DNA from: a virus
Reading direction: 5' to 3' (one strand)
Length of the DNA stretch: 22,552 nucleotides
IMG/VR virus record: IMGVR_UViG_3300010430_003213
Coordinates: 1 to 22,552 of that record
Position numbers and translations under genes: made by a program. Positions 12,562-22,432 of this stretch are shown here, piece by piece (position 1 is the stretch's first letter; every line of letters starts with the position of its first letter). The notes beneath the pieces were generated by a model. That model made no database searches, was not told where the DNA came from, and saw nothing but the letters and a program-made list of their open reading frames with translations.

Positions 12562-13800
12562 CTAGCTGATGCTAATAACACCGTTGTTCTTAGGTTCCCG
12601 ACAAGCGAGGTCAACCCACATACGGACTCGGACTTCGATACCATCCGCAGCACTAAGACGGGCAGACCGGAGTCCATCAGTCGTAGTAATGTGGGGAACC
12701 GGGTCCATGTGATGGAGGGTCCAACAATCCCGCTTCATAAGGTAACCCTTATCATCGGGGCAGAAGGCTCCAGCCATGACAGTCTTAACACCGTCCGGGG
12801 AGGCGTACTTGATGCTGGGCATACCAAACGGGGTAGCCGAGGCATCCTGTCTAATAGCACGAGCGCCAAGCTCTTGCTCCAGTCGATGCCAATTGGTATG
12901 ACTCAACCAGATGGTGTCATAGTTAGCACCCAACCGACGCATTTTAGCCGCGCACTTCTTAAGAGTCTCTTCGATACTACCGAGGTAGGATTGGCGGAAA
13001 CCCTGCAGTCGCTGCACGTCATTGGGACGATCCGAGGAACCCTTGAAGGTACCGGACGTCTCTGCCGTCTCTGGAATCCAACCTGCAACACCAATAACAA
13101 CACTACCATCATCATCTGCGCCAGTGGCGTCATCTGCACGGTAGAGCAATTCGGTATCTGCAAAGCCGGTATCATCGGTAACCGTAAGGGTACCAGCGTC
13201 CAGATCTACACCCGTGACATCAGTGACCTGGCCATTAGCCGCATCAGTGATGAACATACCAACGTGGAAGTTAGCCACATCGTCTGCATTCGCAAGGTTG
13301 ATAACGTTACCAGAGGGGGTGCCAGAGACAGTCCCCAATTTGCCATCACCATCTCGCCAGAGGTGCTTCTCAAGTTCCAACGAGATGCTCTTGACGATAT
13401 CCTCAATCTCAGCTTCCTTCACATCGTAGAAGGCGCCATTACGGTCCCGAGCTGCCCGGATACTCTCGTCATCCAGGGCCAACACACCGAAGTATGCATT
13501 ACGTTTCAGCTCAAACCGGGTAACTCGACCACGACCAGCTGCAGCACTGTTAGACAGGGACTGAGCCATCGCGAAGGAGGAACCGATTGATTGGGGCATC
13601 CCATACTTGACTGGGATGAAGTAGTAGGCCCCGGTAGATCCAGCGGTGTCACCACCAACTAGGTCGTCCTTCTTGGGGAGCCATTTGAATAGGTCACGAT
13701 CCATCTCAGCCAATTGGTTGAGTCGGATCTGTGGAAAGAGTTCTTTATACGCCTTTGAGAGGTTAGCAATACTAACTGGAGGCGTGGTTGCCATTGCCAT
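12562..13800 (-). CDS. Major capsid protein, HK97-fold type (412 aa)
   Basis: The protein assembles the icosahedral head. It has a polar N-terminal arm, an extended segment (about 70-105) with a FELKRNAYFGVLALDDESI core (about 96-114), and a long helix (about 124-150), like the E-loop and spine-helix region of HK97-fold coats. A beta-rich insertion around residues 160-238 probably forms a surface domain. The C-terminal part ends in a beta strand, and the length of 412 is usual for such coats. The ATG at 13798-13800 has an AAGGA ribosome site nine bases upstream; the second ATG two codons later is a possible alternative. It lies directly after the scaffold gene, supporting the assignment. Confidence 0.8.
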   Translation of the reverse strand: MAMATTPPVSIANLSKAYKELFPQIRLNQLAEMDRDLFKWLPKKDDLVGGDTAGSTGAYYFIPVKYGMPQSIGSSFAMAQSLSNSAAAGRGRVTRFELKRNAYFGVLALDDESIRAARDRNGAFYDVKEAEIEDIVKSISLELEKHLWRDGDGKLGTVSGTPSGNVINLANADDVANFHVGMFITDAANGQVTDVTGVDLDAGTLTVTDDTGFADTELLYRADDATGADDDGSVVIGVAGWIPETAETSGTFKGSSDRPNDVQRLQGFRQSYLGSIEETLKKCAAKMRRLGANYDTIWLSHTNWHRLEQELGARAIRQDASATPFGMPSIKYASPDGVKTVMAGAFCPDDKGYLMKRDCWTLHHMDPVPHITTTDGLRSARLSAADGIEVRVRMWVDLACREPKNNGVISIS

Positions 13801-13818: not shown

Positions 13819-14892
13819 TTATTCGGTGCCCCCCTCGGACATCGCTTTGAAGAACTTGGCCCTGGAGGCAGCTTTAATCTCCTCATAGGACATATCCTTC
13901 ATCGACTTCTCCTGGGGAACATTAGATGAAAGTGAATTTGATAGTGTCTTATTCGCCTTCTTCTTACCATCTGGCTTTGGCGATTGTGCCGGCGTTGCTT
14001 CCTGTGCCGGATTCATTTTTCCCAGAAGTTTCTCGTACCGGGTGTTAACCTCGGCCAGGCACTGCTCTGGGGACAGTGGCGCCCCTCGACCCTGTTGCTC
14101 CTCCGCATAGGCTTGTGCGACGGCAAACATATCAGCAGCCACATCGGCTTCTGAATACGCATCCACCACCCTAGCCACTGCCGGAAAGGCTTCTGTGTCA
14201 AAGGTCTTTGTGGCCTCTAGCATACTCTCTTGGTAAGCCACAATTGCTTCATGCATACCCTCATTCCCCTGGGTATCTTGGGGTGGCTTCTCCCTAGCCG
14301 ACTTTAATTCTGCAATCTCCTGCCTAAGCTCTTGCAGTTCTTTCTGCCCCTTGTAGTCGTCAGGGGCCAAGTCTCCAAGGCTCTCGTAATAAGCAGCCTT
14401 GGCAATATCGATTAATTCTTCTTGTGAGATACCAGCAGCTTTAAGGAACTGGATTGGGTTGCTCTTAGCCTGGTGTTGGGCCTTCTGGTAGAGTTTGAGC
14501 TGATCCTCATACTCCTTTTTCGTGGTTTCAAAAGAGTCCTTATCTTCTCGGAGCTTTCTCTCCCTGTCGAGGAGTCGCTTGAGGACTTTTGATTCCGGCT
14601 CTTGGATAGTATCGGTAGCCCCTGCTTGCTCAGGTTCTGCTGCCTCAACTTCCGCTTCTGCTGTCTCTTCTTCCGCGCTCTCTTCCGTACCTTCAGATTC
14701 GCTGGTCTGGGTTTCAACCGCTGCCTCGCCTTCGTCTGCATACCACTCTGGATGCTCTGCCTTCCTTTGGGCTACTAGATCATCTAAGGCGGTACTTACA
14801 TCGATCTTCTCAGAAGGGGCGTCGGATTCACGAACTACCTCGGTTACGTTAGCGTTTGCGTGTACGATTTCAGCTTGCACTCTATCTGACAT
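13819..14892 (-). CDS. Scaffolding protein (357 aa)
   Basis: This protein guides procapsid assembly and is then released or degraded. The visible features fit a scaffold: a highly acidic, low-complexity segment (about 55-97), a heptad-rich charged coiled coil (about 98-150 and 180-205), an Ala/Glu-rich helical middle, and a basic C-terminal stretch (about 308-320) followed by a short amphipathic helix (about 335-355) that in other scaffolds binds the coat. There is no protease motif. The gene lies immediately upstream of the coat gene, and the start overlaps the end of the sulfotransferase-like gene by 11 bases. Confidence 0.75.
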   Translation of the reverse strand: MSDRVQAEIVHANANVTEVVRESDAPSEKIDVSTALDDLVAQRKAEHPEWYADEGEAAVETQTSESEGTEESAEEETAEAEVEAAEPEQAGATDTIQEPESKVLKRLLDRERKLREDKDSFETTKKEYEDQLKLYQKAQHQAKSNPIQFLKAAGISQEELIDIAKAAYYESLGDLAPDDYKGQKELQELRQEIAELKSAREKPPQDTQGNEGMHEAIVAYQESMLEATKTFDTEAFPAVARVVDAYSEADVAADMFAVAQAYAEEQQGRGAPLSPEQCLAEVNTRYEKLLGKMNPAQEATPAQSPKPDGKKKANKTLSNSLSSNVPQEKSMKDMSYEEIKAASRAKFFKAMSEGGTE

Positions 14893-15541
14893 TGTCTTTC
14901 TTTCCGTCCAAATGGATCACTGCCCCATGCGAACTGGCGCTAAATGGGGTAAAACCTAATCTCTTGGCCAAGGGGCCATCTGTCTCCCATACAAGGTCGA
15001 TCATCTCCTGGGAGTATTTCTCCTTGTACTTCCTATCATTCTGAGAGACATTGAGGGGTGGAAACTTGCGAGGGTCTGCCTTGAACTTTAACAACTCCTG
15101 TACCCCCTCGTACATCTGAGCCGTGTCTATAAACACCCTAGTCTGGGGCTGGTAGAAGATCTCGAACCAATGGGAGTAGAGGCCGCCCTCAAATTCCTTC
15201 CACAACCGTTCGTCTGATCTGACAGAGATGAGGGTGTAGCCTTCATCCTTAATGGCCTTCTTAGACATCCCTTCTATAAAGGACTTGAAGGTACCACCAT
15301 AGCGGCGAATGGCGTCCCTACCTTGTACAGACCGATGGGCATGATTAAATAAGCTAACATACCAAGTCCAGGGGTCTCTGATGGTTCCAAAGAACTCGTG
15401 GTGCCCAGGGTGGAGTTTCTCCATCTTGGCGGCTGTTCTATGCCCGAATGAGTCCCGTACACTATTCTTCTGTAGGAAGTCTCGTAACCAGGTTCCCCCG
15501 GTCTTGGGCATATGGATCTGAGTCAGCCTCTTTTTAGCCAC
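14882..15541 (-). CDS. Sulfotransferase-like P-loop protein (219 aa)
   Basis: The protein has the two PAPS-binding motifs of the sulfotransferase superfamily. The 5'-phosphosulfate loop is HMPKTGGTW at residues 10-18, with Lys13. The 3'-phosphate site is IRDPWTWYVSLF at 54-65, with Arg55 and Ser63. Known members transfer sulfate from PAPS to sugars, lipids or proteins. The start is a GTG overlapping the portal stop by eight bases; the first ATG, at codon 11, would remove part of the loop. A GAGG lies about 10 bases upstream of the GTG. An enzyme in the middle of the portal-scaffold-coat cluster is unusual. The substrate is unknown; sulfation of virion proteins or host surface glycans is speculation. 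It could also be an inactive homologue. Confidence 0.75.
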   Translation of the reverse strand: MAKKRLTQIHMPKTGGTWLRDFLQKNSVRDSFGHRTAAKMEKLHPGHHEFFGTIRDPWTWYVSLFNHAHRSVQGRDAIRRYGGTFKSFIEGMSKKAIKDEGYTLISVRSDERLWKEFEGGLYSHWFEIFYQPQTRVFIDTAQMYEGVQELLKFKADPRKFPPLNVSQNDRKYKEKYSQEMIDLVWETDGPLAKRLGFTPFSASSHGAVIHLDGKKDNVR

Positions 15542-17450
15542 CCGTACCAGCCCTCTCTACAGGGATTCCCTGAGCCGAAGTAGCGACGGCACTTTGGAGA
15601 TTCCCCTCTGGGCCAATATTCTGTGGATCAAAGTTACCCTGGGCAGCAGCTGCCATCATTGCCTGCTCCTCTAGTAGTCGTTGCTGCTCATTGGCCTGGG
15701 CCGTGGCTGCATCAACAATCCCTTGTGCGAGGGCAATCCAATCCCGGTAGTTCTGTAGGATTTCTTCTGGGGCCTTCTGCTCCACCCGGCGAAGGTAGGT
15801 AAGGTGGATGAATGGGATACCCGCGTTCAAGTCTTGAAGGGGATCTGGTTGCGGGAATTCGCCCCTATCCAGGAGGTCTGCCGTCTTCTTGATATTATCC
15901 ATACCAATACTACCTAGGGCCTGGACCTCCTCCAAATCTGGATGTCCCAGGTTAGACTTATACTGGTTCGTATCGATTAGGCCCCTAAAGGCTAGGGAGT
16001 CCAACTCATCCATACGGGCAGCTGGGGACATGTTGAGAACACTGGAAGCCTCAATCTGGAGAACGTATTGCCGATTCTCTACTAGGTCCTGAACTTCACT
16101 CCAGGCGATGTCATCTATGAGGCGGCGGTTATGGAAACGAACCGTCCTGTCCGTCCCCCCTTTGTATAGCTCTGACGCCAATTCCATGAAATGTTCTGCC
16201 ACTTCGAGGAAAAAAGCCTCATACCGCTGCGCTTGAAGGGAGAAGCGTTGGTTTTCAATAGTGTTAAATTCACGGAGGGCCTTGGAAGAGTCCAACCTGG
16301 CCTGGGAGGGTAGTTTAGCCTGGGCCGATAACTGGGATATGCCCGCATATTCAAAAGCGGACGACCGAATCCTCTCCCTCTCTGCATAAATCTCCGGTGA
16401 GATCCCTGGCCAATTCATAGCCTCAGGGGTTTTGCCTCTGTAGTGAATCACCCTAGCAATCTGGTTATCCAGTTGCGTCTTAACGATACGAGAAGATCCG
16501 TCAACAAAAATACGAGGAACACACATCAAATCCTGTGCTAGTCGGATTTTGTGATTCAACTCATTCATCCGAATTTGGAAGGGGGCAATCTCCTCTACAA
16601 GGGGTTTGCCATAAAATCCTGTAGGTAGGTTTTCCCAACGGAAGAAGACGAATGGAAATCTGTCTCTGGTATAGTTCTCATCTACGAGGGTGGCACCGTC
16701 AATGACAATGGAATGCCGTCCGGGGGAACCATCCTTGGGTAGTTTCCACGCCTCGATGACAACCACATTATCTGCCGATGGGGTTCTGTAGGAGGTGTAG
16801 TAGAACTGACCAGAGGATTGGGCCTTCTGGATATCATCAAATCGATCTGGGTAGGCCCATTGCAGGGCTACTCTAGGGACCAGCTTACGTTGGTACATCT
16901 GGAAGGGCTTCTGCCCACTCTGTACCTCTCTCTGATCCACGATGATCTCATCCGGCATCACCCTCTCTGTATGGATCTCATCCCCATCTGAGAAGACCTT
17001 AAGAGCACCGATGGGTGCCCAGCAGGCATCGTTAAATACCTTCTGTCCCTTTTCCCAGATGTTCTGGTGCTGGAACTCCCCATACATGTACCTGTCTAGT
17101 TGCTTCCCCAACCTTTCGACAGAGAAGGAGGCATCCTTGACCACGGGGGTGGGTTTAGGCTTGTTCTTGCTAATTAGAGCTGATACAGTATTAACAACGG
17201 AGGCCACCAAATTCTCGGCTGTATTGCTGATAGGGCGGTACTGAACCTGCCTCTCCGTGTGGGAGCCCCAATCCAACCCAGGCAACTCCCTATTACAGTA
17301 CAAAGCTGCATTGATGAAGGTCTGCTTATGGATGGCGTATTGGTTCTCCTCAATACTTCTTACGGTATCGAAGAGGGTATCATGTACCTTCGAGGCTGCC
17401 GGATCATCCGGTTCACCCTCCCACCAGAATGTATTCAGCCGAATTGGCAT
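15534..17450 (-). CDS. Portal protein (P22-type, 638 aa)
   Basis: The portal is a dodecameric ring through which DNA is packaged and ejected. The 638-residue length falls in the podovirus range (P22 portal is about 725). The centre contains long helical segments, including a run with APFQIRMNELNHKIRLAQ (about 285-302), and a later helix-rich region (about 385-425) with the SSKALREFNT pattern common in portals. The C-terminus (about 570-620) is Gln/Ala-rich and helical, as in portals with a barrel. The order large terminase, portal, scaffold, coat supports it. The ATG overlaps the upstream stop as TAATG, so it is probably translated by coupling. Confidence 0.8.
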   Translation of the reverse strand: MPIRLNTFWWEGEPDDPAASKVHDTLFDTVRSIEENQYAIHKQTFINAALYCNRELPGLDWGSHTERQVQYRPISNTAENLVASVVNTVSALISKNKPKPTPVVKDASFSVERLGKQLDRYMYGEFQHQNIWEKGQKVFNDACWAPIGALKVFSDGDEIHTERVMPDEIIVDQREVQSGQKPFQMYQRKLVPRVALQWAYPDRFDDIQKAQSSGQFYYTSYRTPSADNVVVIEAWKLPKDGSPGRHSIVIDGATLVDENYTRDRFPFVFFRWENLPTGFYGKPLVEEIAPFQIRMNELNHKIRLAQDLMCVPRIFVDGSSRIVKTQLDNQIARVIHYRGKTPEAMNWPGISPEIYAERERIRSSAFEYAGISQLSAQAKLPSQARLDSSKALREFNTIENQRFSLQAQRYEAFFLEVAEHFMELASELYKGGTDRTVRFHNRRLIDDIAWSEVQDLVENRQYVLQIEASSVLNMSPAARMDELDSLAFRGLIDTNQYKSNLGHPDLEEVQALGSIGMDNIKKTADLLDRGEFPQPDPLQDLNAGIPFIHLTYLRRVEQKAPEEILQNYRDWIALAQGIVDAATAQANEQQRLLEEQAMMAAAAQGNFDPQNIGPEGNLQSAVATSAQGIPVERAGTGG

Positions 17451-17668: not shown

Positions 17669-18093
17669 CTAGCCCTATACCCTCTGTTATCGTAATGCAC
17701 AAAATTCTTATAAAGGCCCAAGCCACCCTCTTCCATCACGCCTAGCCGAATCAGCCCTTCGATGATGACCTTGACTAGGGGCGGCTCTACACCTTGGACC
17801 ATGAGGTCTACGGCAAATGCGTCTTTGTCGTAAAGGTGGTAGGAGCCATCAACCCCACCAACAGCCTTATTATACTCAGGGGTACGGTAGGCGCTGGTAA
17901 TAAAGACTGTGGAGCCTAGGAACTCTCGTAGGGGCTGCAGATTCTTCTCCGTGAATGCCTCAAGCCCCTCTACCTTCTCTTCAGGGACGGGGGTACCATC
18001 CCGGCAATCAAACTCATACAAATAGAAATTCTTTGATAGTTGCGGCCTCTCTTGATTCGTAGCCGGCATCTCTTTTGCTCTTACATCAGCCAT
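17662..18093 (-). CDS. M15A-type D-Ala-D-Ala carboxypeptidase-like lysin (143 aa)
   Basis: Zinc peptidases of family M15A cleave peptidoglycan cross-links or stem peptides and serve as phage endolysins. Here the N-terminal core (about 18-60) carries the LSKNF...DGTPVPEE pattern. TSAYRTPEYNKAVGG lies at 66-80, followed by SYHLYDKDAFAVDL at 84-97 with the zinc-ligand candidates His86 and Asp96, and FVHYDNRGYRARW at 131-143 with His133. The His-to-Asp spacing is about three residues longer than in the usual SxHxxGxAxD motif. The start at 18093 was chosen because a GGAGG lies 10 bases upstream; the longer frame from 18129 adds residues inside the terminase gene. No signal peptide is present and no holin gene is adjacent. 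Confidence 0.75.
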   Translation of the reverse strand: MADVRAKEMPATNQERPQLSKNFYLYEFDCRDGTPVPEEKVEGLEAFTEKNLQPLREFLGSTVFITSAYRTPEYNKAVGGVDGSYHLYDKDAFAVDLMVQGVEPPLVKVIIEGLIRLGVMEEGGLGLYKNFVHYDNRGYRARW

Positions 18094-19730
18094 TCTGATC
18101 CATCCTCCGCGATAAGTACATTCGTCCACTCCTCTTCATACTGGTCATTCTGCTGTTTAGCCTTGTATCTTTCACAGGCCTCTTTATACTGGGCATCGTC
18201 CCAACTTTGATAAAACTCGTGTGTCTCTGGCTCCGGTGGTACCACCTTGGTCCTAGAGAAATGATGTAGAGAGAACCGCCAGGTATAGAGGAGGGCATCA
18301 CAGAGGTGGTTATCCATCCTCTTATCTTCCTTCAGCTTGTTCCGGCGAATGGCTGTTTTCTTGTCCATCCCCTTTAGATCCCACTGGAGGTGCATCATCT
18401 CATCGTACATGTCGGAATTGGCCAAAAGCTTCACTTTGCCGTCGTAGAGGTCCGAATTGAGCAATTCTATGTGATCGAACTTCTCAGTCTTCTCTGCAGC
18501 CTGGATAAAGAAGCCATATTGCTGATTCAGCGTCTCTATGACCATTTTCGCCAGATTTCCGGTATCTGCGACCATTTCTTCGATTTGGCCGTTAAATTTG
18601 TCCTGAACCCTCTGAATTAGCGCCGCTATCTGCGGAACGATCATATGTGGGCTCTTAAAGTCGTAAACTTGGTACAGAGTGTCTAAATAGGGCGAATAGG
18701 CGACTACAATGAGGGCAAAGTCGTCATTGAACCCCATATCCATCCCCATGATGTACCGCCAGTCCATATCCTTTGGCAAACCATGCTGATTGTACTTCTC
18801 CCCCTCTAATCTAGTCCAAACAGCCCTACAGGCAGAGGGGCCGCCATCATTCGAAACCAATTGGTTGAGGGCGTAGACCATCGTGTCCCCCATGGAGACC
18901 CACTTGCCCAGGGCCTCCCGCATCCAGGTGGGGTTGTCGTCGGACCACTTCTTCCTAGCCTTATCCTCTAAGAAGTTCTCCCAGATGTGCGGACAGAAGG
19001 TGTTTTCTTGAACCGTCCATGTGTGCCGGGACCACCTATGCATCTTCTTCGGATGATCGGTCCAGAACTTCTCTGGGCGGTTAAAACTGCGGGTAATTAG
19101 GTCGCCATCCTCATCCCGAAGGTTCGGACACGTTGCCTCATAGAATGGACCATCCAGGACGGACCCAGGAGTACCAATGATGCAGATAGAGCCATTAGTA
19201 TCGTTAGTAGCAGCTCTAAGGATGTCATCAATAAGTTCTTCAAAGATATGTACCTGAAATGACTTGCACTCATCGATTAGGACCAGCTGGTAGGCCCCTC
19301 CTCGGAGTTTTTCTATGTCTTTCCCCGTTTCGGCACCATTTAAGAAGATTTTGGAGCCATTTGGAAGGGCTATGGTGTTATCTGCCCTCTTATACTCCAG
19401 ATTTAGGGCGTATTTACGGCTAAATTCCGCAAATGGGTCCCAATACAGCCGTTTTGCCGACCGGAGGGTTAGAGTGATGATGGGGACGACACATCCAGGG
19501 TTTTGTAGGGCGGCTATGAGGGCGTAACTGATCGCAGTATGGGTCTTACCCGCACGGCGGGGGGTTAGCAGCGACTTTCGTCTATCTGGATCGGTTACAA
19601 ATAGCTGCTGTTCTTCAAAAAGATCAGCTAGAATAGCTTTCCAGGCGGATTCGTCCCTTTCTGCTTGGACTTTGGCGCTTTTGTTGCTGGTTCTTTGCTT
19701 TTGGAAGAGGATGTCTGTGGTGTCTGACAT
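18081..19730 (-). CDS. Large terminase subunit (packaging ATPase and nuclease)
   Basis: This motor protein cuts and packages concatemeric phage DNA into the procapsid. The N-terminal ATPase has a Walker A, PRRAGKT at residues 57-63, a Walker B, LVLIDE at 149-154 (Asp153, Glu154), and a coupling motif CIIGTPG at 183-189. The C-terminal nuclease has the three acidic positions expected of an RNase-H-like fold: Asp331 in MGMDMGF, Asp389 in VADTGN and Asp478 in HLCDALLY. The 549-residue length is typical. The ATG at 19730 is the only ATG before Walker A, but it has no clear ribosome site and lies 103 bases inside the preceding gene, so coupling is likely. Confidence 0.92.
   Translation of the reverse strand: MSDTTDILFQKQRTSNKSAKVQAERDESAWKAILADLFEEQQLFVTDPDRRKSLLTPRRAGKTHTAISYALIAALQNPGCVVPIITLTLRSAKRLYWDPFAEFSRKYALNLEYKRADNTIALPNGSKIFLNGAETGKDIEKLRGGAYQLVLIDECKSFQVHIFEELIDDILRAATNDTNGSICIIGTPGSVLDGPFYEATCPNLRDEDGDLITRSFNRPEKFWTDHPKKMHRWSRHTWTVQENTFCPHIWENFLEDKARKKWSDDNPTWMREALGKWVSMGDTMVYALNQLVSNDGGPSACRAVWTRLEGEKYNQHGLPKDMDWRYIMGMDMGFNDDFALIVVAYSPYLDTLYQVYDFKSPHMIVPQIAALIQRVQDKFNGQIEEMVADTGNLAKMVIETLNQQYGFFIQAAEKTEKFDHIELLNSDLYDGKVKLLANSDMYDEMMHLQWDLKGMDKKTAIRRNKLKEDKRMDNHLCDALLYTWRFSLHHFSRTKVVPPEPETHEFYQSWDDAQYKEACERYKAKQQNDQYEEEWTNVLIAEDGSEWLM
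18104..18108 (-). promoter_or_regulatory. Ribosome binding site deciding the lysin start
   Basis: A GGAGG on the minus strand ends 10 bases before the ATG at 18093. It is a better start context than the in-frame upstream codon at 18129, which lies inside the terminase gene. Confidence 0.6.
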
Positions 19731-19930: not shown

Positions 19931-20375
19931 AAATGGGCTCCAAATTCCTTCGTCGTGCTATAGCTGGGCAGTGGGAACCATTCCGAAACTGCCGACAATC
20001 TGGTGTTCTAAACGTATAGAGGAAGGACGTGCCCTCAGGGATCCCTGCAGCCTCCATAAGGGACGGAAAGAACCCAAGCCCCCTGAGTACAGGTTTTACA
20101 TAAACGTAGTGTAGAACGGGAACAGCGGCCTCCTCGAAAGCGATGAACCCTACCAGGGACCCCTCGGCCTCTCCTACGAGAACCGTCATGCCCCTATCTA
20201 GTAGCTGTTTTATTCCTTCGTCGAAAACCGCTGTAAATAAATTATTTGGGATGATCCCTGCAAATGGACTTCTTTTCCATCCGTTGGACCATGCATGTAA
20301 GATAAAGCTACGCTCCCCCTGATTTGGGGACAGATTCGCTTCCCTTACCTTTAGTATATTGTTGATCTTTGTCAT
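19896..20375 (-). CDS. GNAT-like N-acetyltransferase (159 aa)
   Basis: GNAT enzymes transfer acetyl from acetyl-CoA to amines. Here the core strand TVLVGEAEGSLVGFIAF (about 64-80) leads to a second strand, HYVYVK, and the acetyl-CoA-binding loop region PVLRGLGFF (about 95-103), which matches the R-G-x-G part of motif A, although the residues after it are bulky. A start at the ATG at 20375 was preferred over the upstream TTG because an AGGA lies six bases before it. The gene overlaps the candidate small terminase by 68 bases. The substrate is unknown. GNAT-like genes near phage packaging genes occur in other podoviruses as I recall, so this may be a conserved accessory. Confidence 0.6.
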   Translation of the reverse strand: MTKINNILKVREANLSPNQGERSFILHAWSNGWKRSPFAGIIPNNLFTAVFDEGIKQLLDRGMTVLVGEAEGSLVGFIAFEEAAVPVLHYVYVKPVLRGLGFFPSLMEAAGIPEGTSFLYTFRTPDCRQFRNGSHCPAIARRRNLEPIYAESPGKRSKV

Positions 20376-20751
20376 ACTCAATCCTGCGGAAGCCCCTCAG
20401 GAGATCGTACCACTGGTTCCTACCTAGGTTATTAGCCCACTCTAGGAATGCGTCAATCTTCTCCTCGATGGACATCATCTCTGCCATCTGCTTCTGTGAG
20501 GCTTGAATCTTGAGGTACATCTGCCCCAAGGAATTGGCCGCTTTGACCAGATCCTCCCCCTGCTTGGCTAATCGGGGGTCAAACTGATGTACGGAGCCAT
20601 CATCCGGCAATTCGTACATCTTAGCCTCATGCCTCGTGAGGTGCTCATTTAGCACCCTAAGTGACTTCTTGAGGACCGTCTCGATCTTAGGAGTGGCCCT
20701 GGCCTTATCCTTACGATTCGGCTTCTTCGTACCTATCTTCATCCTGCTCAT
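20308..20751 (-). CDS. Candidate small terminase subunit (147 aa)
   Basis: This is the first gene of the leftward operon. The N-terminal 30 residues are very basic (Lys/Arg-rich), a possible DNA-binding segment. About 62-105 form a continuous charged helix with coiled-coil potential, and the C-terminus is polar with a Gly/Ser/Lys tail. Small terminases bind the packaging start site, oligomerise through a helical core and contact the large subunit. Position, size and composition fit, but there is no clear helix-turn-helix, so the call is by context. A second ATG three codons in is possible; neither start has a strong ribosome site. Confidence 0.5.
   Translation of the reverse strand: MSRMKIGTKKPNRKDKARATPKIETVLKKSLRVLNEHLTRHEAKMYELPDDGSVHQFDPRLAKQGEDLVKAANSLGQMYLKIQASQKQMAEMMSIEEKIDAFLEWANNLGRNQWYDLLRGFRRIEYDKDQQYTKGKGSESVPKSGGA
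20382..20385 (-). promoter_or_regulatory. Ribosome binding site deciding the GNAT-like start
   Basis: An AGGA on the minus strand lies six bases before the ATG at 20375, which favours that ATG over the TTG at 20381. Confidence 0.5.
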
Positions 20752-20784
20752 ACAACTATCACCAAAATCCTACTTCGTTCGTCC

Positions 20785-20877
20785 GTCTTTGCCCTTCAAA
20801 AACACTAAAGACATCTGAGTAAATCGAAGATTTATGAATGGGGTCGAAGTAAGACCTTTAGGTCGCTTCGATGCCCC
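20785..20877 (-). promoter_or_regulatory. Structured 5' leader of the late operon
   Basis: The predicted transcript from the consensus promoter folds into a hairpin at 20840-20877. Outer arms GGGG/CCCC enclose TCGAAG/CTTCGA, then an inner GACC/GGTC stem closed by a four-base loop, about 14 base pairs in all. A second pair, GTCTTT (20807-20812 on the minus strand) with AAAGAC (20785-20790), lies between it and the first gene. The leader could regulate translation of the first gene, protect the mRNA end, or act in antitermination; none of these is shown. Confidence 0.5.
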
Positions 20878-20925
20878 TACTGAATCACTACATTGTTTGT
20901 CCAACACTGTAATTGGTACACTACT

Positions 20926-20954
20926 ATTATAACAAGAACTACAACCTTTGTCAA
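20926..20954 (-). promoter_or_regulatory. Perfect sigma70 promoter for the leftward late operon
   Basis: On the minus strand TTGACA (20954-20949) is followed by a 17-base spacer and TATAAT (20931-20926), matching the bacterial housekeeping consensus at all 12 positions. The expected start near 20919 is about 168 bases before the candidate small terminase gene. The phage therefore probably uses host RNA polymerase for its structural operon. Confidence 0.8.
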
Positions 20955-21010
20955 CACTTATTTTCAACTATTCCATAACTCCATAGTATTATTACTAAAA
21001 CCACACTCTT

Positions 21011-21057
21011 AAATTGGCCCACAAATGTATGTCGTGCACCTACATCCTCGCCAATTT
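21011..21057. repeat. Nested inverted repeat with GTGCAC centre
   Basis: Outer arms AAATTGGC (21011-21018) and GCCAATTT (21050-21057) enclose ATGTA (21025-21029) and TACAT (21041-21045), around a GTGCAC palindrome (21034-21039). It lies just upstream of the leftward promoter and could be an operator, a cruciform or a hairpin in a rightward transcript. Confidence 0.55.
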
Positions 21058-21163
21058 GAACCCCCAAGTAGGGCGGGCGGGTGGCAATCATCAATATCTA
21101 TATAGGGACAAAACCTCCTTACTTATTCACAAGTAATGGCCAAATGTCCCCCTAAGGCTCGGC

Positions 21164-21178
21164 TGAATGATACATTCA
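21164..21178. repeat. Short perfect inverted repeat
   Basis: TGAATG (21164-21169) and CATTCA (21173-21178) are separated by ATA. The size fits a small dimeric regulator site, but no regulator is known here. Confidence 0.35.
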
Positions 21179-21280
21179 CCTCGCAGCACAACCACAAACC
21201 ACTCCCAACCCCTTCGGACGGCTAACGAAACAAAGGTCTCATTTGCCGTTAAATGTCACTTCTCTACCATATCCGCCCCC

Positions 21281-21300
21281 TATTTTTCAAAAAAATTTTT
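21281..21300. other. A/T tract, candidate unwinding or bent-DNA element
   Basis: Twenty bases with only one C, made of a T-run followed by an A-run and another T-run. It stands out from the surrounding sequence and sits about 70 bases before the phased repeats. Such tracts bend DNA or open easily at origins. Confidence 0.45.
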
Positions 21301-21368
21301 AGCATAAACACAGTATAGCGGCAAGATCCATGCCAACAAAAGGGGAAACATTACCTATACTTACAGCC

Positions 21369-21476
21369 CCTATGCAACCATCATGCCACCGCTAAGTACC
21401 TGTAATCACGTCCTATGCAATCCATGTGCCACCCCCAGCTATGACATCTGTGTCACCTCAGCATGTCGTTTGCCAC
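21369..21476. repeat. TGCCAC repeats at 43-44 bp spacing, two within 22-bp direct repeats
   Basis: Imperfect direct repeats at 21369-21390 and 21412-21433 share CCTATGCAA and a terminal TGCCACC, with 17 of 22 positions identical. TGCCAC starts at 21384, 21427 and 21471, so the sites are about four helical turns apart on the same face. The spacing suggests sites for one protein, as in an iteron origin or operator. Confidence 0.55.
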
Positions 21477-21555
21477 ATTGTCACTTGACACCAGTGTTAT
21501 CAGCTACTTAGCCAATGTCAAGTTAATTCTTTCGTGTCAGATTTGACACATGTCA
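21442..21555. promoter_or_regulatory. Array of TGACA/TGTCA half-sites
   Basis: Eight TGACA or TGTCA pentamers start at 21442, 21451, 21479, 21486, 21516, 21535, 21544 and 21551. Several form inverted pairs, for example GTGTCA-4-TGACAC and TTGACA-2-TGTCAA. This is far more than expected by chance in 114 bases and suggests cooperative binding by a dimeric protein. Confidence 0.6.
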
Positions 21556-21982
21556 AGTGCATAATTTGCGGGGCGGTCTAAATACTCGAAATCACTCACC
21601 TATAATACCCCCAGTAATATCAACAACTTGCAAAGTCAAGAGAAAAGTGATGGGACGCTCAACCTGGGGGCTACAGACCACACAAAATAATCACGAAAGA
21701 ATGTCGATTCCCCTTGCCATCCCCCTACCGCTGTGGCATTCTAATCATGGGTCGAACGAGACCCCCCGAGATTGACAACCGAATAGAGCAGTAGCGGCCT
21801 TGCCCGGGGTATGTGCAGAGATGCCTCACCAGTCACGGGGATAACAGGGACCGAGATACAAGTATTGTGGTGGTGCCACCAATCAGAGCACCATAGGGCT
21901 AGGGCAACTATTAACCGCCGTGACATAGGGTCGCAAACTAGCACCTACAAACAACCACAAACAGAAAGAAAGAGAAATCAAC

Positions 21983-22432
21983 ATGTTCGACGTAATTAAA
22001 TCAGCTCGTACCCGTAACACTGTCAAATCGGATGGATTGCTAGACTTGAAGAAATTCATCAGCAGCATTGCCCGGGGCGACCGTACTTGCATCTACGTGA
22101 CCGAGAACGGCAACGTATACGATGGCACCTCCACCTACTTCGACCGCGAAGGAGAGGAGACTGTAGCAGCTGCAGCACTGGAAGAGGATGGACAGCTTCG
22201 AGAGGGTTATACCTCAGTCGCTAATGTCCTCGCCTACGTCCCTGAATTGCCTGAGGCAGTGTCCCGAGGCGACCGTAAGGGGCAAATGCCCACCTGGAAA
22301 GAGATTGTCCAACGGCTTAACAGCCACACCGGGGCACACCCTGGCAAACTGAGTACCGACACCAGCCTACTGGTTCGGTTCCAAGAAGGGGCTAATCGGC
22401 TCAAGACGGCCAAAATCACAGCAAAACAATAG
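21983..22432 (+). CDS. Unknown protein, first gene of rightward unit (149 aa)
   Basis: This is the only clear plus-strand gene. It starts with ATG after a purine-rich AGAAAGAAAGAG stretch about eight bases upstream, which serves as a weak ribosome site. The product is soluble, with a charged N-terminal helix (about 15-32), a strand-rich segment with ICIYVTENGNVY-like pattern (about 36-50), an acidic middle and a basic Lys-rich C-terminus (about 138-149). No family is recognised. The divergent position opposite the late operon suggests an early or middle gene, possibly for host takeover or DNA metabolism, but nothing in the sequence proves this. Confidence 0.65.
   Translation: MFDVIKSARTRNTVKSDGLLDLKKFISSIARGDRTCIYVTENGNVYDGTSTYFDREGEETVAAAALEEDGQLREGYTSVANVLAYVPELPEAVSRGDRKGQMPTWKEIVQRLNSHTGAHPGKLSTDTSLLVRFQEGANRLKTAKITAKQ

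Follow-up and report, generated by a model that had tools for sequence, protein, structure and literature searches.

An Array of TGACA/TGTCA Pentamers in the Control Region of a Phage Genome Fragment: A Proposed Iteron Cluster of a Replication Origin

Gene Organization of the Window

The DNA analysed here, referred to as the window, is the complete record IMGVR_UViG_3300010430_003213 (G000) of 22,552 bases, which is classed as linear and is probably a fragment of the genome of an uncultured tailed phage. The structural genes are encoded leftward, with TerL at 18081-19730, the portal protein at 15534-17450 and the MCP at 12562-13800. A sulfotransferase-like gene (phrog_3347), located at 14882-15541 on the minus strand between the genes of the portal protein and the next structural protein, is absent from the corresponding place in the related genome described below. 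The first leftward gene, located at 20308-20751, codes for a protein of 147 amino acids and sits where a small terminase gene would be expected, with the array about 690 bp upstream of it; its product was not matched to any of the known terminase families. In the rightward direction, the first gene codes for a protein of 149 amino acids, for which no relative was found in viral contigs and for which the structural model was poor (pLDDT 41).

The features of the control region between the two gene blocks are compiled in Table 1. The leftward promoter, which drives the structural genes, is of the host type, although the genes themselves appear to be late genes; a phage RNA polymerase was not seen in the fragments of either the window or its relative. 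Besides this promoter (20954-20926), a consensus scan of positions 20700-22100 revealed no further promoter-like or terminator-like sites. The AT-rich block has an AT content of 70-75%, with 75% in its core at 21282-21321, and is located about 130-170 bp to the left of the array. The second conserved direct repeat, TATCAnCnACTT, is present in two copies in the window, one inside the array (21498) and one to the right of it at 21617-21629.

Table 1: Features of the control region and its flanks in the window. L005 is a locus of the related genome G001.
Feature	Position	Strand	Basis or counterpart in G001
Leftward late promoter, TTGACA-17-TATAAT, 12/12 sigma-70	20926-20954	-	Consensus scan; also in G001 at L005 1148-1120 (-)
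Conserved AT-rich block, possible melting element	21269-21314		77% identity to L005; function proposed
22-nt repeat CCTATGCAACCATCATGCCACC, two copies 43 bp apart (starts 21369, 21412)	21369-21433	+	One similar copy in G001
Proposed iteron cluster, a TGACA/TGTCA array of 8 pentamers with 4 close inverted pairs	21442-21555		Counts; same density in G001
Proposed iteron unit 1, TGACATCTGTGTCA, perfect TGACA-N4-TGTCA	21442-21455		Aligned to TGACATCAATGTCA at L005 1569
Inverted pair TGTCA-N2-TGACA, right arm common with unit 2	21479-21490		Sequence
Proposed iteron unit 2, TGACACCAGTGTTA, one mismatch	21486-21499		Aligned to TGACATCAATGTCA at L005 1611
TATCAGCTACTTAGCCA, copy of second conserved direct repeat	21498-21514	+	Sequence comparison; ATATCAACCACTTAG in four copies in G001
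Right-end palindrome GTGTCAGATTTGACAC	21534-21549		Similar to GTGTCAAATATGCCAC at L005 1670-1685; weak BLAST match, reverse orientation
Inverted pair TGACA-N2-TGTCA, overlaps right-end palindrome	21544-21555		Sequence
First rightward gene, 149 aa, no family match	21983-22432	+	Unrelated to the gene at that place in G001

The TGACA/TGTCA Array

An earlier reading of this DNA, made from the sequence only, had reported eight TGACA or TGTCA pentamers within 114 bases, several of them as close inverted pairs with spacings of 7-9 bases. All eight were confirmed, starting at 21442 (+), 21451 (-), 21479 (-), 21486 (+), 21516 (-), 21535 (-), 21544 (+) and 21551 (-), and four close inverted pairs can be distinguished, whose starts are offset by 9, 7, 9 and 7 bases. 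The placement of the array between the leftward late promoter and the rightward open reading frame was also correct. The array is non-coding, with all six frames interrupted by stops.

The pentamer itself is not enriched throughout the window, where 51 copies were counted versus 44.2 expected; the chance value of about 0.2 per 114 bp given in the sequence-only reading therefore holds. Outside the array, the maximum is three pentamers per 114 bp, so that no comparable density exists elsewhere in the 22.5 kb. Dinucleotide shuffling of the 1,231-bp control region, repeated 2,000 times, gave no more than four pentamers in the densest 114 bp, and 300 shuffles of the window gave at most five. When all pentamers were ranked by their clustering in the control region, TGACA was far ahead with eight, followed by a runner-up with five.

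Two canonical units of the form TGACA-N4-TGTCA are present in the array, one perfect and one with a single mismatch, separated by 44 bp (2 x 22), and the remaining pairs differ in orientation or spacing.

The Array in a Related Genome

Relatives of the window were sought by scans with TerL, the portal protein and the MCP. The only one found which contains the control region is IMGVR_UViG_3300010392_000413 (G001; loci L002, L005 and L006), a virus contig of 32,838 bases with identities to the window of 74% for TerL and 88% for the portal protein. In L135, a locus with an MCP of 54% identity, the array was absent from the stretch examined. For the portal protein, no relative was found in genome contigs or named phages, and a blastn search with the right third of the window matched no named phage.

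The control regions of the window and G001 are colinear in several blocks, with the late promoter, the first palindrome and the AT-rich block among them. A non-coding block, GTAGGGCGGGCGGGTGGC...ATATAGGGAC, located at 21068-21109 in the window, is also common to both. The array was found to be kept in G001 at the same place and with the same density, with eight pentamers in 114 bases from L005 1569 onward. Neither of the two outcomes named in the sequence-only reading as a refutation, an equal density elsewhere or a loss of the array between relatives, was thus observed in the available sequence. Here, the units occur in the order TGACATCAATGTCA, CGACATCCATGTCA, TGACATCAATGTCA and TGACAGCAATGTCA, three being perfect TGACA-N4-TGTCA palindromes and one near-perfect, with centre spacings of 22, 20 and 45 bp. 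The window units at 21442 and 21486 are aligned to units one and three of G001, and with at most one mismatch allowed, the four units in G001 and the two in the window are the only ones in both control regions. For the shared units, 19 of 20 arm positions are identical between the two genomes, versus 4 of 8 in the N4 spacers and 39 of 86 (45%) for all other positions of the array, a contrast which is supportive and not conclusive, because it derives from a single sequence pair and the alignment favours matches. The comparison of the two sequences argues that the conserved unit of the array is the 14-bp TGACA-N4-TGTCA, a putative dimer site, which describes the array better than the lone pentamer.

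In G001, five perfect DnaA boxes (TTATCCACA) were identified on one strand, three to the left and two to the right of the array, versus 0.014 expected; this number was reached in none of 500 shuffles. DnaA-like boxes in the window are at chance level, with one TTATTCACA. Of these two features, it is thus the array which is conserved, and the DnaA boxes are particular to G001. The four ATATCAACCACTTAG copies in G001 are located at L005 1439, 1549, 1732 and 2015, and a DnaA box follows 5 bp after the end of one of them.

The early genes of G001 include those for an exonuclease, an SSB and a DnaB-like helicase, which makes replication through a loaded helicase plausible. A further reading frame in the early region, L005 9236-9967 (+), was strongly matched to the uncharacterised family DUF7873 (E 4e-92). 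The first early genes of the window (149 amino acids) and of G001 (270 amino acids) are without a family and unrelated to each other.

The Palindromic Unit in Other Genomes

For the identification of the unit in other viruses, IMG/VR was scanned for two TGACA-N4-TGTCA units within 30 bases. Such tandem units were found in at least 120 loci (L014-L133), versus 10 loci in the entire IMG/VR for CAGTA-N4-TACTG, a control palindrome of the same base composition. When the open reading frames near the arrays were clustered, the most frequent neighbour proved to be a protein encoded by a gene which itself contains the array. All 10 examples checked were matched to Pfam HTH_36 and to PHROG families annotated as "replication initiation protein" or "replication initiation O-like". 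Among the matches listed, 63-64 of 120 loci have their array within a winged-helix (HTH_36 or O-like) reading frame, compared to 0 of 10 for the control palindrome, the count varying slightly with the cut-off of the initiator HMM. This HMM was built from 24 of the array-bearing proteins and thus seeded by the loci under study, so that the independent check is provided by the matches to Pfam and PHROG.

Inside the initiator genes, the spacing of neighbouring units peaks at 22, 23 and 24 bp (69 of 113 among the matches listed). A preference for multiples of three was not observed, so that the spacing reflects DNA geometry and not coding. In several IMG/VR loci, a DnaB-like helicase gene is located within a few hundred bases of the array, and among the IMG/VR matches listed 16 DnaA boxes were found at a distance of up to 200 bp from the unit arrays, versus 2.1 expected. 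In Vibrio phage D72, looser units resembling GTGAnnnnnTGTCAC are present within the gene deposited as "replication initiation O-like". In ten named phage records (L265-L274) containing relatives of one array-bearing initiator, some of them matched over only part of the protein, no unit with at most one mismatch was found, and therefore only some members of this initiator family use TGACA-N4-TGTCA.

The tandem unit also occurs in bacterial genome contigs, in at least 117 loci (L138-L254). Among the 117 listed, 20 arrays lie in an initiator frame and 96, the majority, in loci without an initiator match, so that the palindrome is probably bound by further DNA-binding proteins as well. Two neighbouring TGACA-N4-TGTCA palindromes are therefore suggestive of an origin and not diagnostic for it. 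A distinct class is formed by pairs of CTGTGACATGCATGTCACAG, which are 37-38 bp apart and located outside of initiator genes in L017, L044, L081, L112, L113 and L129; they possibly represent a different regulator or a terminator-like element.

Possible Roles of the Array

The array is probably the iteron cluster of a phage replication origin, located in non-coding DNA and detached from the initiator gene. The sequence-only reading had proposed either an operator or an origin, and of these two the origin has become the better supported, by the DnaA boxes of G001 and by the arrays in O-like initiator genes of other phages, while the operator has been weakened.

As an operator, the array would be bound by a dimeric transcription regulator of the phage or the host, which switches between the leftward late and the rightward early units. 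The location in a divergent intergenic region is in agreement with such a function, as are the paired palindromes, whose arrays are typical of cooperative repressors, and the many bacterial arrays without an initiator match, which suggest that other regulators use the palindrome. Nevertheless, this role is considered unlikely. The strong leftward late promoter is located about 490 bp away, and a consensus scan of the sigma-70 class found no promoter overlapping or abutting the array. Just to the right of it, a -10-like TATAAT without a -35 element is present at 21601, as would be expected at an activated promoter, but this element is not kept in G001, where the array is. In addition, the two genomes have different genes in the first rightward position, and DnaA boxes flank the array of G001. 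Both roles could coexist, and an initiator may autoregulate its own expression.

A packaging-recognition site (cos or pac) for the small terminase subunit appears very improbable. It would fit the proximity to the gene in the small-terminase position, phased repeats like those bound by some small terminases, and three IMG/VR arrays found near TerL genes (L021, L080 and L133). However, the latter are few among the 57 non-initiator arrays listed, the 147-amino-acid protein is unmatched to a known terminase family, and the DnaA boxes beside the G001 array would have no role in packaging.

That the pentamers are parts of tandem or cryptic promoters was considered since four of the eight lie within TTGACA, the sigma-70 -35 consensus (at 21485 and 21543 on the plus strand, and as the complement at 21516 and 21551). 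For none of the four was a -10 element with at least 4 of 6 matches found at a spacing of 16-18 bp, and the conserved units in G001 contain TGACATC instead of TTGACA, which makes this explanation highly implausible. Clustering by chance or composition, in favour of which only the shortness of the pentamer can be named, has a negligible probability, because eight pentamers were not approached in any of the shuffles and both density and units are the same in G001.

Proposed Mechanism of Origin Function

For the array as an iteron cluster, we infer the origin function, the nature of the binding protein and the location of the melting site from the features described above. A dimeric initiator, probably encoded by the phage and resembling lambda O-like proteins in having a winged-helix domain, would bind to the TGACA-N4-TGTCA dimer sites. 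On sites spaced by about 22 bp, corresponding to two helical turns, it would build a nucleoprotein complex, which would melt a nearby AT-rich stretch where the phage DnaB-type helicase would then be loaded. In G001, host DnaA would probably assist via the five DnaA boxes. The origin would be placed between the late and early gene blocks, apart from any initiator gene.

A match to HTH_36 or phrog_270 was not found in the window or in G001, which end 120 bases past the first early gene and inside the helicase gene, respectively. No initiator frame runs over the array region of G001 either, as is the case for the window with its stops in six frames. One candidate, a protein of 148 amino acids encoded upstream of DnaB in G001, was considered as an O-like C-terminal domain and rejected, since it was unmatched by an HMM of initiator C-termini; its structural model was poor (pLDDT 59). 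A sign switch of the GC skew at this region of G001 was likewise discarded as evidence for an origin, because gene direction switches there too and the third codon positions show no clear trend.

To our knowledge, replication origins have been mapped for hardly any uncultured phages. In dozens of phage loci, O-like initiator genes are marked by a palindrome repeated every 22-24 bp or so, which provides a searchable origin signature, and in the window and G001 the signature is also intergenic, where gene-based annotation would miss the origin. We tentatively propose that TGACA-N4-TGTCA might be in wide use as an iteron code of winged-helix phage initiators, one that has so far gone unrecognised; in the lineage of the window and G001 it would form a free-standing non-coding origin uncoupled from the initiator gene and, in one member, joined with host DnaA boxes. 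A blunt string search of an incomplete literature collection did not find this unit named for a phage. If the iteron code is real, sequence alone could suffice to find the replication origins of phages in uncultured viral genomes.

Comparison to Known Origins

The lambda origin consists of the iterons ITN1-4 and an adjoining AT-rich stretch (PMC3349717), and in lambdoid Stx phages the iterons are located within the gene of the dimeric O protein (PMC7466680). The array resembles these origins in its dimer-type palindromic sites about two helical turns apart and in the AT-rich stretch nearby. The dimeric phage initiator of the lambda and Stx systems is proposed here by analogy, and the helicase to be loaded may have its counterpart in the DnaB-like helicase of G001. 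The sites themselves are different, since the lambda iterons are of the ATCCCTCAAAACGAGGGA type (primers of PMC7466680) and lie inside the O gene, while here TGACA-N4-TGTCA units are found in non-coding DNA and an O-like gene was not observed. A spacing of about 20-24 bp between several palindromic iterons, which is a trait of the lambda O type, is present in G001 (22/20/45 bp) and partly in the window, where two units are 44 bp apart and the rest is irregular.

A similarity also exists to the HTH_36 and O-like genes (phrog_270, phrog_391, phrog_678) of the IMG/VR phages, which contain the same 14-bp unit at a spacing of 22-24 bp, in some cases with a neighbouring DnaA box, and with a DnaB-type helicase gene nearby. 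In these loci the units are inside the initiator gene, which is the arrangement of the lambda origin, whereas in the window and G001 they are in a divergent intergenic region, the window units being only partly canonical.

In plasmids, iterons are direct repeats bound by Rep monomers. In contrast, the units in the window and G001 are inverted repeats, and no Rep gene was seen. Iteron plasmid origins combine iterons, DnaA boxes and an AT-rich melting element, and the helical phasing of the iterons matters (PMC4980987). G001 shares with RK2 oriV, F, P1 and pSC101 the presence of iterons, DnaA boxes and an AT-rich block. Taken together, the array is best regarded, with reasonable likelihood, as a lambda-like iteron array with TGACA-N4-TGTCA as its unit, a variant placed in non-coding DNA away from the initiator gene.
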